A stretch of DNA of 64,000 nucleotides from Alcanivorax sp. REN37. Its GTDB lineage: Bacteria > Pseudomonadota > Gammaproteobacteria > Pseudomonadales > Alcanivoracaceae. The DNA lies in contig NZ_JBGCUO010000001.1 in NCBI RefSeq assembly GCF_041102775.1, forward strand, positions 682,001 to 746,000. Direction: 5' to 3'. The notes beneath the pieces are model-generated. The model was not told the DNA's origin and did no database searches. It saw nothing but the letters and a program-made list of their open reading frames with translations. A program made the translations under genes and the position numbers. Shown here in pieces: positions 8,810 to 14,003 of the stretch (its first letter is position 1; every line of letters begins with the position of its first letter).

Positions 8810-9868
8810 TCACAGTTGCGCCGCCGCCTCCCGCAGCAATTGTTCGCTGTCTTGCCAGCCAAGGCAGGCATCAGTGACCGACACGCCGTAGCGCATCGTT
8901 TCGCACAGCGGCTGCGCACCTTCTTCCAGATGGCTCTCGATCATCACCGCCCGCAGCGTATGGCGACCGGCGCGACGTTGCGCTAACACATCCTTCAATA
9001 CCTCGATCTGGCGGCGATGGTCTTTCTGGCTGTTGGCGTGGCTGCAATCCACCATCAGTGCCGGCGACACCCCTGCGTTCGCCAAGGCGTTGCTGGCCGC
9101 GTCCAAGGCGTCGGCATGGTAGTTAGGACCGCTGCGACCACCGCGCAGGACCAAATGGGTGTCAGCATTGCCCTCACTCACCAGCACCGCCGGGCGCCCG
9201 TGGCGGTCAACGCCAAAGTGGTGATGCCCGCGCGCTGCCGCCCCCATGGCGTCAATCGCCACCGTGGTGCCGCCATCGGTGCCGTTTTTGAAGCCACAGG
9301 GCAGCGACAGCCCGCTGACCATTTCGCGGTGGATCTGCGATTCAGTGGTGCGCGCGCCCACGGCAGCCCAACTCAGCAGGTCTTCCAAGTAGCCGGCCGC
9401 CATCGGGTGCAGCAATTCGGTGGCCACCGGCAGGCCCAGTGCCACGATGTCGCGCATCAATCGCCGCGCCGTACGCAGGCCCAGCGCCATGTCATGGCTG
9501 CCGTCCAGTGCTGGATCGTAGAGCAGCCCTTTCCAGCCCACCGTGGTGCGGGGCTTTTCCACGTAGACCCGCATCACCAGCAGCAGCTTGTCACCGAGCT
9601 GGTCTGACAGCGCCCGCAGGCGGCGGGCGTAGTCCATGGCGGCGTCCACGTCGTGGATCGAGCACGGACCCACCACCACCAGCAAGCGCGGATCGCGGCC
9701 GGCGAGGATGTTGCGGACCGCTTGGCGGTGGGTCGCCACTTGGGCTGCCAGCGCGGGCGACAGCGGCAGTTCGGCGGCCAGGGCGTCGATGCTGGGCAGC
9801 AACTCCGGCGCGGGGGGGCGGATTGCTGCTGCAGGTGGGTGGGCAGCCAATGTCGCGTTGGTGTTCAT
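8810..9868 (-). CDS. aroG: 3-deoxy-7-phosphoheptulonate (DAHP) synthase, class I
   Basis: A 352-residue type I DAHP synthase condensing phosphoenolpyruvate and erythrose 4-phosphate, the entry step to the shikimate pathway and to Phe, Tyr and Trp. Signature segments are LLVVVGPCSIHDVDAAMDYARRL, VMRVYVEKPRTTVGWKGLLYDP, GARTTESQIHRE, GFKNGTDG and VDCSHANSQK (metal ligands). Which isoform (Phe-, Tyr- or Trp-sensitive) cannot be told from sequence by eye. Upstream lie a leader peptide with clustered aromatic codons and an intrinsic terminator, so expression is very likely controlled by ribosome-mediated attenuation. Confidence 0.93.
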   Translation of the reverse strand: MNTNATLAAHPPAAAIRPPAPELLPSIDALAAELPLSPALAAQVATHRQAVRNILAGRDPRLLVVVGPCSIHDVDAAMDYARRLRALSDQLGDKLLLVMRVYVEKPRTTVGWKGLLYDPALDGSHDMALGLRTARRLMRDIVALGLPVATELLHPMAAGYLEDLLSWAAVGARTTESQIHREMVSGLSLPCGFKNGTDGGTTVAIDAMGAAARGHHHFGVDRHGRPAVLVSEGNADTHLVLRGGRSGPNYHADALDAASNALANAGVSPALMVDCSHANSQKDHRRQIEVLKDVLAQRRAGRHTLRAVMIESHLEEGAQPLCETMRYGVSVTDACLGWQDSEQLLREAAAQL

Positions 9869-9894: not shown

Positions 9895-9985
9895 AAAAAA
9901 CCCCGTGGCGGACGCCGACGGGGTTTCATGGATCTGGTGTCAGGCGTCCGTGTTAACGGGCGCCTGCACTGCTCGGATCAGGCGC
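9895..9985 (-). promoter_or_regulatory. transcription attenuator in front of aroG
   Basis: On the minus strand five mutually exclusive segments follow the leader codons. A (9985-9979, GCGCCTG, at the leader stop) pairs with the start of B (9966-9960, CAGGCGC). B (9966-9956) pairs with C (9951-9941) over eleven positions with one mismatch. The core of C (CGGACGCC, 9950-9943) pairs perfectly with D (GGCGTCCG, 9916-9909). D lies inside a terminator with arms CCCCGT and ACGGGG (9923-9901) followed by six T (9900-9895). A stall at the aromatic codons leaves A free, giving A:B, then C:D, and read-through. A ribosome at the stop codon covers A, giving B:C, and the terminator forms. Base pairing is seen; the switching logic is inferred. 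Confidence 0.8.
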
Positions 9986-10094
9986 GCCGCTGGCGAAACC
10001 AATATCCGAAATAAAACGCAGCGCACGGCTGACGACGCTCGGCCAAATGGGCCAGCGTGGAAGACGAAGCAAGGCGTGTTGCGAGCGGTGCCAT
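9978..10094 (-). CDS. aromatic amino acid leader peptide for aroG attenuation
   Basis: A 38-residue open frame too short for routine gene calling starts with ATG at 10094, with a weak AGGACAG ribosome site. Residues 27-33 read FYFGYWF: three Phe, two Tyr and one Trp around one Gly. The C-terminus is RQRRA. Such clustering of codons for all three end products directly before a terminator and a DAHP synthase gene is the hallmark of an attenuation leader. Unlike pheA or trp leaders, which sense one amino acid, this one could sense all three pools. The stop codon overlaps pairing segment A of the attenuator. Confidence 0.82.
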   Translation of the reverse strand: MAPLATRLASSSTLAHLAERRQPCAAFYFGYWFRQRRA

Positions 10095-10178
10095 GGTCTG
10101 TCCTGTCAGTAACCGTGAGAAAAATGAGTTTTCAGGATAGGGAGGCACCCTCCGTTGTGCAACCCGGTCATGAAAAAT

Positions 10179-10529
10179 TCATCTGTGCTGGGATTGTTGC
10201 AGCGCCAGCCCCCAGAGTTGGGTGGAGCGGGCACCGGAGCGGCAGAACGCCAGTACCGGCTGCTCGGCGTTGTCTAGGGCAGAGCGCATCAGTGTCACTT
10301 GCTCGGGCGTGATCTGGCCGCTGATTACCGGAATATGGATGTACTTTAAACCGGCCGCCGCTGCCGCTTTGGCGATGTCTTCGCTGCGCGGCTGACTGTC
10401 ACCACCTTCGGCGTCCGGGCGGTTGTTGATCAGGGTGCGGAACCCCTGTTCGGCAATGGCCGCAACGTCCTCGGCGCGGATCTGTGCGCAGGTGCTGAAC
10501 GACTCAGTGTGGCGAGTGAGGGATTCCAT
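10179..10529 (-). CDS. DUF442/TIGR01244-type sulfurtransferase or phosphatase-like protein
   Basis: A 116-residue protein of the small cysteine-phosphatase-like family often fused to, or placed next to, Blh-type persulfide dioxygenases. TLINNRPDAEGGDSQPRSEDIAKAAAAAGLKYIHIPV is typical, and the active loop FCRSGARS provides the CX5R nucleophile. The role may be sulfur transfer or dephosphorylation; substrates are unknown. It is the only recognisable partner of the sulfur-handling genes found 5 kb downstream but is not in their operon. Confidence 0.75.
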   Translation of the reverse strand: MESLTRHTESFSTCAQIRAEDVAAIAEQGFRTLINNRPDAEGGDSQPRSEDIAKAAAAAGLKYIHIPVISGQITPEQVTLMRSALDNAEQPVLAFCRSGARSTQLWGLALQQSQHR

Positions 10530-10772: not shown

Positions 10773-11469
10773 GGGTTATTCAAATCTAGTCAATGGAGGC
10801 CCGCCGCTGCGCAGCAGTCCGGTCCTGAATCTTCAGGTGGCGTGGTCATCATTCACATTTGCGAAAATGACAAATCGCCGCAATGGGTTATCGGTAAAAA
10901 ATAATGAGCTGGCGACGCATCTGTGCGTCTGTATAACGGGGGGCGGTCCCTGCCGGGCGCCGGCCTGGGTTGTTCTGTTATGGCGTAAGCGCCAAAGGAT
11001 CATAACAGAGGCTGGCGGCCATGGAATATAGCATGGGGTTTTAGCCCAATGCCCGCTAAAACCAGCGGCCGATGTGAAAGGTGTCTCAGATCAGTGGTTT
11101 AGTTAGTTTGCCTGGCGCGCCCTCGAAGGTGCGTATCCATGGCGCAATCGCGCAGAAATGGAGTTTCAGCCAATAGCAATTCTGCCTGTGATGCGGCGGA
11201 CCGGCGCGACGCTGGCCGTGACCAAGGGCGCCAAGCGGGTGAGCGGAGGGAGCCAGAAACGCACCGTCTTGTATACCTGAATTTACAATCCTCGGGCGCC
11301 GGTGAGCGTCCTGTAGTGACTTGGTTATTTTTGGTAACCCCAGGGCCTCGCCCTCTGTGTAGTGCCCCTCCTGAGTCCCTATCATGCGCGGGTTTTGGCA
11401 CGGATGCGCCACCCTCGGCGCGTTTCACCGCTGCGGTGCCGTGCCGTTCCAACGTCCCACCCGGAGCTC
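10773..11469 (+). other. long non-coding stretch before the OmpA-family gene
   Basis: About 700 bases with only short frames that show no protein-like composition. One clear element is a perfect inverted repeat at 11037-11063, with nine-base arms GGTTTTAGC and GCTAAAACC around a nine-base loop, and no T-run after it. The rest probably contains the promoter of the OmpA-like gene, but no convincing -35/-10 pair was picked out. Confidence 0.5.
11037..11063. repeat. perfect 9-bp inverted repeat
   Basis: Arms GGTTTTAGC and GCTAAAACC are separated by CCAATGCCC. The lack of a T-tract argues against a terminator. It could be a protein-binding palindrome or an RNA hairpin in a long leader or small RNA; nothing in the sequence decides between these. 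Confidence 0.5.
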
Positions 11470-12564
11470 ATGATGGCGAACTTTATTGCACGCACTGCGT
11501 TGGCAGTGGCTGTGACGGCCGTGGCCCATGGTGCCGCCGCCGCTGACAGTCAGTACGGCACCGAGACCAAACAATACATCGCTGCCCAGATGTCCTACCT
11601 AGTGGTGGATGAAGATCGCGCTATCTCGCGCAAGGGCTTTGGCGCCAGCCTGATCTACGGCCGCCAACTGACCGACCAACTGTGGTGGGAAAGTGAAGGC
11701 AGCGGCTACCAGCTGGATACCGGCAAGGGTGGCGGCAGTGATTTCTATCAAGCCGCGGTGACCACCGGTTTGGCGTGGGCGTTCGGCGACCGCGAGCGCT
11801 TCACCCCATTCGTGATCGGCCAGGTCGGCGTGCTGCGCAACGACGTGGTGCCGAGCCGTGACGACAAGATTGGCTTCCACGCCAACGTTGGCATCGGTGC
11901 GGTGACCGCGCCGCTGTTCAAGAACGGCCTCAAACTGCGTGCGGACGCCCGCTACATGTACGACAGCTACGACGGCATCCGTGGCACTGTCTCCGAAGAT
12001 CAGGGCGGTTTCTTCGACTGGCGCTTCGGCATCGGCGTGGAACTGCCACTGGGCTTCCGCAAGGAAACCCAAGTCGACAAGTACATCTACGAAACGCTGG
12101 AAGTGGAGCGCTACGTGCGTGAGCCGGACAGCGATGGCGACGGCGTACCGGACTCCCGCGACCTGTGCCCGAACACGCTGGCGGGCGGCAAGGTGGATGC
12201 CAACGGTTGCCTGCTGAAAAACCAGGTGATCGTGTTCCACAACATTGCCTTTGAACTGAACTCCGACCAGATCCTCGCCACCACCATGCCGGCGCTGGAA
12301 AAGATCGCGGTATCGCTCAACGAGCAGACCGACTTCCGTCTGGAAATCGGCGGCCACACCGACAGCAGCGGCTCTCACGAGTACAACCTCGACCTGTCCG
12401 AGCGTCGCGCCGAAGCCGTGCGCCGCGCACTGGTAGAGCTGGGTGTGGCGACTGACCGGCTCAGCAGCCGTGGCTACGGCAAGACCGTGCCGCTGGCCTC
12501 CAACGATTCGCTATCCGGCCGGGCCATGAACCGCCGCGTCGAATTCACCGTGCTTGAAGACTGA
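11470..12564 (+). CDS. OmpA-family outer membrane protein with TSP3-type hinge
   Basis: A 364-residue protein with a signal peptide (ending AVAHGAAAA) and an eight-strand-like beta-barrel in the first ~200 residues. A short calcium-type hinge follows (EPDSDGDGVPDSRDLCPNT), then a C-terminal OmpA peptidoglycan-binding domain (IAFELNSDQILATTMPALEKIA..., GHTDSSGSHEYNLDLSERRAEAVRRALVELGV, SRGYGKTVPLASNDS, NRRVEF). The start at 11470 follows CCCGGAGCTC and gives the natural signal peptide. It likely links the outer membrane to the cell wall. It is followed after 11 bases by a lipoprotein built of the same calcium repeats. Confidence 0.88.
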   Translation: MMANFIARTALAVAVTAVAHGAAAADSQYGTETKQYIAAQMSYLVVDEDRAISRKGFGASLIYGRQLTDQLWWESEGSGYQLDTGKGGGSDFYQAAVTTGLAWAFGDRERFTPFVIGQVGVLRNDVVPSRDDKIGFHANVGIGAVTAPLFKNGLKLRADARYMYDSYDGIRGTVSEDQGGFFDWRFGIGVELPLGFRKETQVDKYIYETLEVERYVREPDSDGDGVPDSRDLCPNTLAGGKVDANGCLLKNQVIVFHNIAFELNSDQILATTMPALEKIAVSLNEQTDFRLEIGGHTDSSGSHEYNLDLSERRAEAVRRALVELGVATDRLSSRGYGKTVPLASNDSLSGRAMNRRVEFTVLED

Positions 12565-12575
12565 GGACACAGGGC

Positions 12576-14003
12576 ATGAATCATTTTAACCGCACCCTTT
12601 TGATTGCCCTGATGGCCGGCACCTTCGGCCTTGGGCTGGCGGCCTGTACCGCCGATGGCGACAGTGACCGCAAACCGACCGTCGATAACATTGATAGCGA
12701 CGGTGATGGCATTCCTGATCACCTCGACAACTGCCCGTCCATGGCCAACGCTGACCAGGCCGATATGGACGGCGATGGCGTCGGTGATGTGTGTGATCCG
12801 GACATCGACGGCGACGGCATTGCCAACCACCTCGATAACTGCCCGCGTATGTACAACCCGGACCAGCTTGATTCCGACGGCGACGGCATTGGTGACGCGT
12901 GCGACACCGACACCGACACCGACGGTGACGGCATTGACGACGGCATCGACAACTGCCCGCTGGTGTTCAACCCGGAGCAGAGTGACGTCGACAACGACGG
13001 TATTGGCGATGCCTGTGACACCGACGCCGATGGCGACGGTGTGGACAACGACCAAGACAATTGCGAGTTCACCGCCAATGCGGATCAGAAAGACACCGAT
13101 GGCAACGGCATTGGCGACGCCTGTGAAGGCGACGTAGACGGCGACGGCGTGCCGGACGATCAGGACAACTGCCCCTACCTGCCGAACATCGACCAGGCTG
13201 ACCAAGACGGTGACGGCGTTGGTGATGTGTGCGACACCGACCGCGATGGTGACGGCGTACCGAACGACACCGACAACTGCCCGTTCGTCGCCAACCCGGG
13301 CCAAGAAGACTGGGACGGTGACGGCGTGGGCGATGCGTGCAGCGGCGGCGCACCGGACATGGGCGACGCCGACGGCGACGGCATTCCCAACTATCTCGAC
13401 AACTGCCCGCTGGTTCCGAACCCTGGCCAGGAAGATTCTGACGGCGACGGCATCGGTGATGCCTGCGACACCAGCTTCACCTGTGACGCCACCACCACCT
13501 ACCGTGCGCTGGATCTGTCCCAGTTCCGCCCGGATACCAAAACTGATGGCGCTTGCATCGGTTGCTCGATCTCAGGCCGTAACTTCCTGGCTGACGGTGA
13601 CAGCGAAACCTATGCCGAACTGCGCATGGGCTTGGCGATCTTCTACGGCTTTGGCTGGTTCAAAGCAGAAGCGCTGGATACCTCAGTGAAGATTACCGAC
13701 AAAGAAGTGGGCTTCGTGATCTCCGATCCGGCGTCTCAGCTGCTCAACCTGGAGCTGCTGGGCGACTTCATCACCGTGCGTTTCTACAACGACGGTAAAG
13801 AGGTGGATTCCAAAGTCGTCGGCGGCACGGGCCTGAACCTGGACCTGCTCGGTCTGGGCTTCAATACCAAGCAGCGCTTCCTGCGGGTGAAGGTGAAAGA
13901 AGATTTGGAATTTGATTCCTTCCGTCTCGACTTTGGTGGTTTCCTCAACGCCAACAAGACCTTCCGCGTGCATGAAATCTGCACCGGGCCGTACAATCTC
14001 TGA
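12576..14003 (+). CDS. lipoprotein with seven thrombospondin type 3 repeats
   Basis: A 475-residue lipoprotein (lipobox LAAC near residue 23). Residues ~38-300 are seven tandem thrombospondin-3 units of the form DxDGDGIxDxxDNCPxxxNPxQxDxDGDGxGDxCD, which in known proteins wrap calcium ions and are stapled by disulfides. Residues ~305-475 form a Cys-containing beta-rich globular domain of unknown type (ACIGCSISGRNFLADGDSETYAELRMGL). The protein is very acidic. It forms a unit with the OmpA-like gene upstream, whose hinge carries the same motif, and ends at a strong terminator. A calcium-dependent surface or cell-envelope spacer role is inferred. Confidence 0.82.
   Translation: MNHFNRTLLIALMAGTFGLGLAACTADGDSDRKPTVDNIDSDGDGIPDHLDNCPSMANADQADMDGDGVGDVCDPDIDGDGIANHLDNCPRMYNPDQLDSDGDGIGDACDTDTDTDGDGIDDGIDNCPLVFNPEQSDVDNDGIGDACDTDADGDGVDNDQDNCEFTANADQKDTDGNGIGDACEGDVDGDGVPDDQDNCPYLPNIDQADQDGDGVGDVCDTDRDGDGVPNDTDNCPFVANPGQEDWDGDGVGDACSGGAPDMGDADGDGIPNYLDNCPLVPNPGQEDSDGDGIGDACDTSFTCDATTTYRALDLSQFRPDTKTDGACIGCSISGRNFLADGDSETYAELRMGLAIFYGFGWFKAEALDTSVKITDKEVGFVISDPASQLLNLELLGDFITVRFYNDGKEVDSKVVGGTGLNLDLLGLGFNTKQRFLRVKVKEDLEFDSFRLDFGGFLNANKTFRVHEICTGPYNL
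12694..13473 (+). repeat. coding tandem repeats (thrombospondin type 3 units)
   Basis: Seven degenerate units of roughly 96-111 bases, each containing GACGGCGACGGC-type Asp-Gly codons and a GACAACTGCCC (DNCP) core. The DNA repeats are similar enough that length change by recombination is plausible. They are protein-coding and are not a CRISPR array. Confidence 0.8.

Follow-up and report, generated by a model that had tools for sequence, protein, structure and literature searches.

A candidate ribosome-mediated attenuator with Phe, Tyr and Trp codons before a DAHP synthase gene of Alcanivorax, and its relation to the Pseudomonas small RNA P15

The window analysed here, a stretch of 64,000 nucleotides from Alcanivorax sp. 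REN37, encodes on its minus strand a type I DAHP synthase of the AroF/G/H type (8810-9868, 352 aa), recognised by TIGR00034 (452.9 bits, cut-off 173.2), NF009395 (500.1 bits) and PF00793. On the same strand, upstream of this gene, lies a leader peptide gene (9978-10094) of 38 codons plus TGA, which reads MAPLATRLASSSTLAHLAERRQPCAAFYFGYWFRQRRA, has FYFGYWFRQRRA as its 3' end, and is preceded by a putative Shine-Dalgarno sequence AGGA (10101-10104), read from the sequence 6 nt 5' of the ATG. The tail of the peptide, FYFGYWF-RQRRA, begins with the presumed regulatory codons FYFGYWF (codons 27-33, 9996-10016, minus strand), six of the seven being aromatic. An earlier note on this DNA had described this frame and its aromatic run before a DAHP synthase, and the sequence bears it out: there is a short translatable leader in which codons for the end products of the pathway are clustered, as in ribosome-mediated attenuators. 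Neither Pfam nor NCBIfam has a model that matches the peptide, whose gene is conserved in its 3' half before the DAHP synthases of relatives. With the window and its shuffles as reference, such a run is rare: runs with at least six aromatic residues in seven and all three types present occur only twice in the six frames of the window, FYFGYWF being one. The other, at +48233, lies inside a frame of 49 codons between stops, and dinucleotide-shuffled window sequence has none in 3.8 Mb.

Transcription of the leader may start near 10127, as read from a candidate -35 element TTGCAC (10157-10162) located 17 nt 5' of a candidate -10 element TATCCT (10134-10139), both on the minus strand. TTGCAC-N17-TATCCT is a weak promoter match, and a generic sigma-70 scan found no site upstream of the leader; the pattern TTGnnn-N16-18-TAnn[CA]T is nevertheless present upstream of the leaders in 19 of 38 relatives, versus 0.65 expected. 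Further upstream, the neighbourhood includes a TIGR01244-family sulfur transferase gene (BLH phosphatase-like; 10179-10529, minus strand), 84 nt upstream of the leader ATG, and two adjoining frames on the plus strand, the first of which (11362-12564) resembles by eye an OmpA-type outer-membrane protein, while the second (12576-14003) carries many Asp-rich repeats of the DSDGDGIGDACD kind.

The RNA between the aromatic run and the DAHP synthase gene contains, all on the minus strand, segment A (GCGCCTG, 9979-9985), which overlaps the leader stop codon, segment B (CAGGCGC, 9960-9966), which can pair with A or C, segment C (CGGACGCC, 9943-9950), which can pair with B or D, and segment D (GGCGTCCG, 9909-9916), located in the loop of an intrinsic terminator hairpin (9901-9923; arms 9923-9918 and 9906-9901, 6 bp) that is conserved in relatives and followed by a T6 run (9895-9900). 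The A:B helix has 7 bp, the B:C helix 11 positions with one mismatch, and the C:D helix, the antiterminator, 8 bp. Helices that exclude one another thus lead to an intrinsic terminator ahead of a structural gene, which is a further mark of ribosome-mediated attenuators. The pairings of 7, 11, 8 and 6 bases and the six T lie where they had been placed earlier, and the five segments then proposed are all present, but that layout was incomplete: a sixth segment, s1 (CGGAT, 10004-10008, minus strand), lies inside the Gly-Tyr codons of the run and pairs with s1' (ATCCG, 9974-9978, minus strand), just past the leader stop. The leader region has a folding z-score of -4.3, none of 200 shuffles being equally stable. 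A simple terminator scan makes no call at 9901-9923, because the loop limit of that scan is 8 nt.

The polarity of the system was assessed by placing a ribosome at each codon of the leader and folding the RNA downstream of it to the 3' arm of the terminator. The model uses equilibrium energies and sets the edge of the ribosome at a constant 11-14 nt beyond the A-site codon. In the window copy, the predicted probability of C:D is 0.96-0.98 with the ribosome at any of codons 27-33, the single Trp codon included, and drops to 0.44 at codon 34, to at most 0.01 at codons 35-38 and to 0.04 at the stop codon, where B:C reaches 0.95. The aromatic run thus coincides with the stretch where a stalled ribosome leaves A free. 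Over 58 sequences, the pairs trapping the 5' arm and loop of the terminator fall by a mean of 3.59 bp once the ribosome is past the run, the on-off difference being positive in 53 and negative in none, versus 0.10 +/- 0.29 with a shuffled spacer; five relatives (L021, L181, L182, L183 and L184) show little change. Judged by folding only, therefore, a ribosome in the run favours the antiterminator and its further progress favours the terminator, which is the polarity that the earlier note had claimed. The note had also made this polarity depend on the overlap of A with the leader stop; the overlap is real in the window, but it is not essential, for family f38 has segment A some 20 nt 5' of its stop codon. 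The requirement is that a ribosome moving off the run masks A at once.

With the ribosome upstream of the run, many copies from Pseudomonas and Alcanivorax likewise show a weaker trap, which is what the holding of A by s1:s1' would produce. The window RNA without a ribosome is predicted to prefer A:B, with a C:D probability of 0.97. In these equilibrium models the s1 protector therefore seems to work in many relatives but to be weak in the window copy, and the order of folding could alter the ribosome-free state of the latter.

The same leader layout precedes orthologous DAHP synthases in at least five families of the order, including those of Alcanivorax, Pseudomonas and Halotalea, and both the aromatic run and the stems, the features by which the earlier note proposed to check its claim in relatives, are present there. 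As scanned, 29 of the 30 closest orthologues have a leader with an aromatic cluster upstream of the DAHP synthase, and the sole exception (L012) shows the leader in the alignment. When a DNA pattern for the leader end was run over 84,980 species genomes, at least 119 stretches were returned; among the matches listed, nearly all belong to Pseudomonas, Stutzerimonas, Halopseudomonas, Alcanivorax and Halotalea, most have a DAHP synthase 124-418 nt downstream, and those with no visible DAHP synthase are mostly ended by the stored flank. Two of the listed matches, in Bacteroides and Desulfocapsa, look like chance. A covariance model (R1) has strong matches in families f1, f21 and f38, the matches used being those above about 35 bits or adjoining a DAHP synthase, with scores of 28-34 bits, many of them in the order, treated as noise.

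Families f38, f20, f40 and f7 have divergent leaders, each of which contains Phe, Tyr and Trp; examples from other families are FGYGYWFSNGVP, FFWWFGYGFYFSQ and VYWYFAEYFFGYYFSQ, the second of which is the tail found before the DAHP synthase in family f20 (L197-L204), with nine aromatic codons per stretch of eleven. Codons for all three amino acids are present in every one of the 58 leaders compared, and the exact peptide differs among families. In a class-wide draw, 26 of 29 DAHP synthase loci had no aromatic frame upstream. From the same draw, the Trp/Arg-rich frame of L221 looks incidental, and at L227, with RFWFDWFVW, a terminator is not evident. The third locus of that draw with an aromatic frame, L236, is plausible: belonging to another order of the class, it has a leader MQSRNFFAFYFWFSVPGGREARL with FFAFYFWF, followed by a short terminator and a DAHP synthase, apparently a simpler triple-aromatic leader outside the order.

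The conservation of the run has a marked RNA component. At the three positions before the Gly codon, Phe and Tyr swap freely and the residue is almost always aromatic. From Gly to Ser, by comparison, even the synonymous sites are fixed, with GGG in 50 of 55 sequences, TAT in 53/55, TTT for the last Phe in 53/56 and AGC in 53/54. In the downstream gene the corresponding figures are 211/1694 for GGG (12%), 59/318 for TAT (19%) and 19/181 for TTT (10%), and codons fixed contrary to the habit of that gene point to a constraint at the RNA level. The fixed nucleotides include pairing ones, GGGTA with TACCC just past the stop codon, and this s1:s1' helix has changed on both sides, being GGAT/ATCC in the window and GGATA/TATCC in L005 versus GGGTA/TACCC. 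The Gly of the run is accordingly invariant because its codon pairs. In the first leaders, the hexamer TTTAGC (Phe-Ser) hardly varies across nearly all families, an observation that the tested pairings explain only in part.

The helices were tested by comparing the pairing of each sequence's own segments with that of segments from other lineages in 5000 permutations. When each lineage was represented by one sequence, permuted partners were as good in 1 of 5000 for A:B and in none for B:C or C:D. In a separate comparison of s1:s1', self pairing was better than in all 5000 permutations. Segments C and D, for example, read CGGACGCC and GGCGTCCG in the window, CGTGCTGCC and GGCAGCACG in L021, and GACTGCC and GGCAGTC in L208. 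RNAalifold reported little covariation in an alignment of 38 sequences, because most of these sequences are close and s1' shifts in the alignment.

Rfam already contains the Pseudomonas form of this element, a link absent from the earlier note. The family RF00627, 'Pseudomonas sRNA P15', matches the window at 9901-10020 on the minus strand (44.3 bits, E 1.1e-7) over model positions 1-119 of 119, with the DAHP synthase start at 9868 downstream; this is the only RF00627 match of the genome. Its score lies below the gathering score of 70, and at Rfam gathering scores the window has no match. The copy of a genus mate reaches 94.5 bits, and the full model is matched in L033 (Pseudomonas) with 125.6 bits and in L023 (Stutzerimonas-type) with 104.7 bits. 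P15 has reportedly been verified by northern blot and lies upstream of a DAHP synthase, and we know of no function assigned to it. P15 is most likely the terminated leader of DAHP synthase in Pseudomonas.

We propose that the element controls DAHP synthase by ribosome-mediated transcription attenuation and monitors the charging of Phe, Tyr and Trp tRNAs together, and we give this reading a probability of roughly 0.86. The codon run, the helices, the compensatory change and the polarity on which it is based are computed; the transcription start, the co-transcriptional timing and the response to Phe, Tyr and Trp individually are inferred. During transcription, a ribosome would follow the RNA polymerase along the leader gene. 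A shortage of charged Phe-, Tyr- or Trp-tRNA would stop the ribosome within codons 27-33, where its leading edge would leave A free to form A:B; C, thus released, would pair with D in the loop of the terminator, and transcription would proceed into the DAHP synthase gene. When all three are plentiful, the ribosome would move on and mask A, so that B:C forms and D is left free, the terminator folds and a short RNA is released, which in Pseudomonas would be the catalogued sRNA P15. With no ribosome on the run, s1:s1' could hold A. The attenuation of DAHP synthase through a Phe/Tyr/Trp leader, as the earlier note had it, is supported by the relatives, the compensatory change and the folding sweep. 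The one leader does contain codons for the three amino acids that the note has it sense, and all three may act in the cell; its statement that the leader opens the whole pathway goes too far. Another DAHP synthase of the genome (G000:C1:1525205-1526194, L215), 51% identical to the first, has no aromatic leader upstream, and the attenuator would therefore govern one isoenzyme.

The most serious alternative is a genuine attenuator that responds to just one or two of the three amino acids, with the remaining aromatic codons as passengers or placed where stalling changes nothing. It has a precedent in Corynebacterium glutamicum, where the leader peptide AroR, with Phe-Tyr-Phe, attenuates aroF in response to Phe limitation, while Tyr limitation has no effect despite the Tyr codon (PMC11802643, PMC4046766). 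Against it, each codon of the run, the lone Trp codon included, gives the antiterminator in the sweep, and the three kinds are kept in all 58 leaders, across families with different peptides. We consider this narrower sensing possible, though well short of an even chance.

Two other explanations are improbable, and to a similar degree. The element could be a trans-acting small RNA with targets of its own, the small frame being incidental. Rfam indeed types RF00627 as 'Gene', that is, as an RNA gene and not a leader, and P15 is among the small RNAs that Livny et al. (2006) detected in P. aeruginosa, as cited in PMC2375449. An independent small RNA would not, however, be expected to stay before DAHP synthase across families, to keep a frame with aromatic codons despite large sequence change, and to have segments that form mutually exclusive helices with the terminator among them, although the leader RNA may have a role in trans as a by-product. 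Alternatively, the nascent peptide could bind a free aromatic amino acid and stall the ribosome in the manner of TnaC or ErmL, with no need for uncharged tRNA, as the nearly invariant tail GYWFSxxRA in Pseudomonas and Alcanivorax might suggest. However, synonymous sites are invariant as well, the invariant stretch falls on the pairing segments, and the other families retain aromatic content rather than sequence; moreover, arrest at the run on an abundant amino acid would presumably switch the gene on when it is unneeded. A plain constitutive terminator preceded by a chance aromatic frame is contradicted by the conservation, the compensatory change and the position of the codons, and can practically be dismissed.

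The tRNA-sensing attenuator that we favour is not without precedent, given the AroR-aroF system and the Pseudomonas form already in Rfam. It shares with C. glutamicum aroR-aroF an aromatic-codon leader peptide before a DAHP synthase and control by transcription attenuation, and differs in that the latter belongs to an actinobacterium and has no Trp codon reported; the comparison covers the leader peptide, its gene and the mode of control. In E. coli, the entry step of the aromatic pathway is controlled by TyrR and TrpR. The E. coli attenuators pheL-pheA, pheM-pheST and trpL-trpEDCBA similarly use stalling at aromatic codons to control an aromatic pathway gene, but each has a different target gene, one regulatory amino acid and four segments. 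Leaders that sense several amino acids are known from E. coli ilvGMEDA and thr, although these respond to branched-chain amino acids or to Thr and Ile.

The closest architecture is that of enterobacterial hisL, which has six segments, with B:C and D:E formed in the on state and C:D and E:F in the off state. The leader described here corresponds to it if s1 is taken as the first segment, A:B and C:D being opposed to B:C and D:E, and it has the two on-state helices, the two off-state helices and the protector of the his type, with the protector predicted to be weak in the window. It differs from hisL in its amino acids and gene, and in that s1 pairs just beyond A and not with A. The architecture with s1 thus matches the logic of the his operon and is not a new parity. 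The Rfam His_leader family RF00514 reaches at best 27.4 bits, in L197 only, below its gathering score of 49. A search of open-licence papers, a set outside which many journals fall, found none describing this leader in Pseudomonas or relatives. What is new is that these features come together: a single run with codons for Phe, Tyr and Trp, DAHP synthase as the target, a broad occurrence within the order and the connection with P15.

A second small conserved frame, rich in Tyr and with the motif WRF[ST] (TGGCGATTTAGC), lies some 25-85 nt past the terminator and before the DAHP synthase in Pseudomonas-type and f38 genomes (L033, L009, L023, L185, L189 and others). Many copies run on as ..RS.Q.A.S(D/G)R...GG, and the hexamer TTTAGC recurs in this frame. 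None was found in the window or in the genus mates examined, and no T-run follows it; by eye there are competing short hairpins, and it may act on translation. A broader picture, for which we see the odds as about even, is that RF00627/P15 is not an sRNA gene but a leader family extending far beyond what the Rfam threshold reveals. The position of a single ribosome would then combine the states of the three aromatic tRNA pools and switch DAHP synthase when any one of them is short, and the second frame would make it a two-stage leader in Pseudomonas and f38.

In the reading that we prefer, an orphan small RNA of Pseudomonas gains a concrete, testable function, and illustrates that among the bacterial sRNAs in catalogues some are terminated leaders. 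The leader would respond to all three end products of a pathway at the step where that pathway begins, and this bears on how aromatic production in Pseudomonas is understood and engineered.
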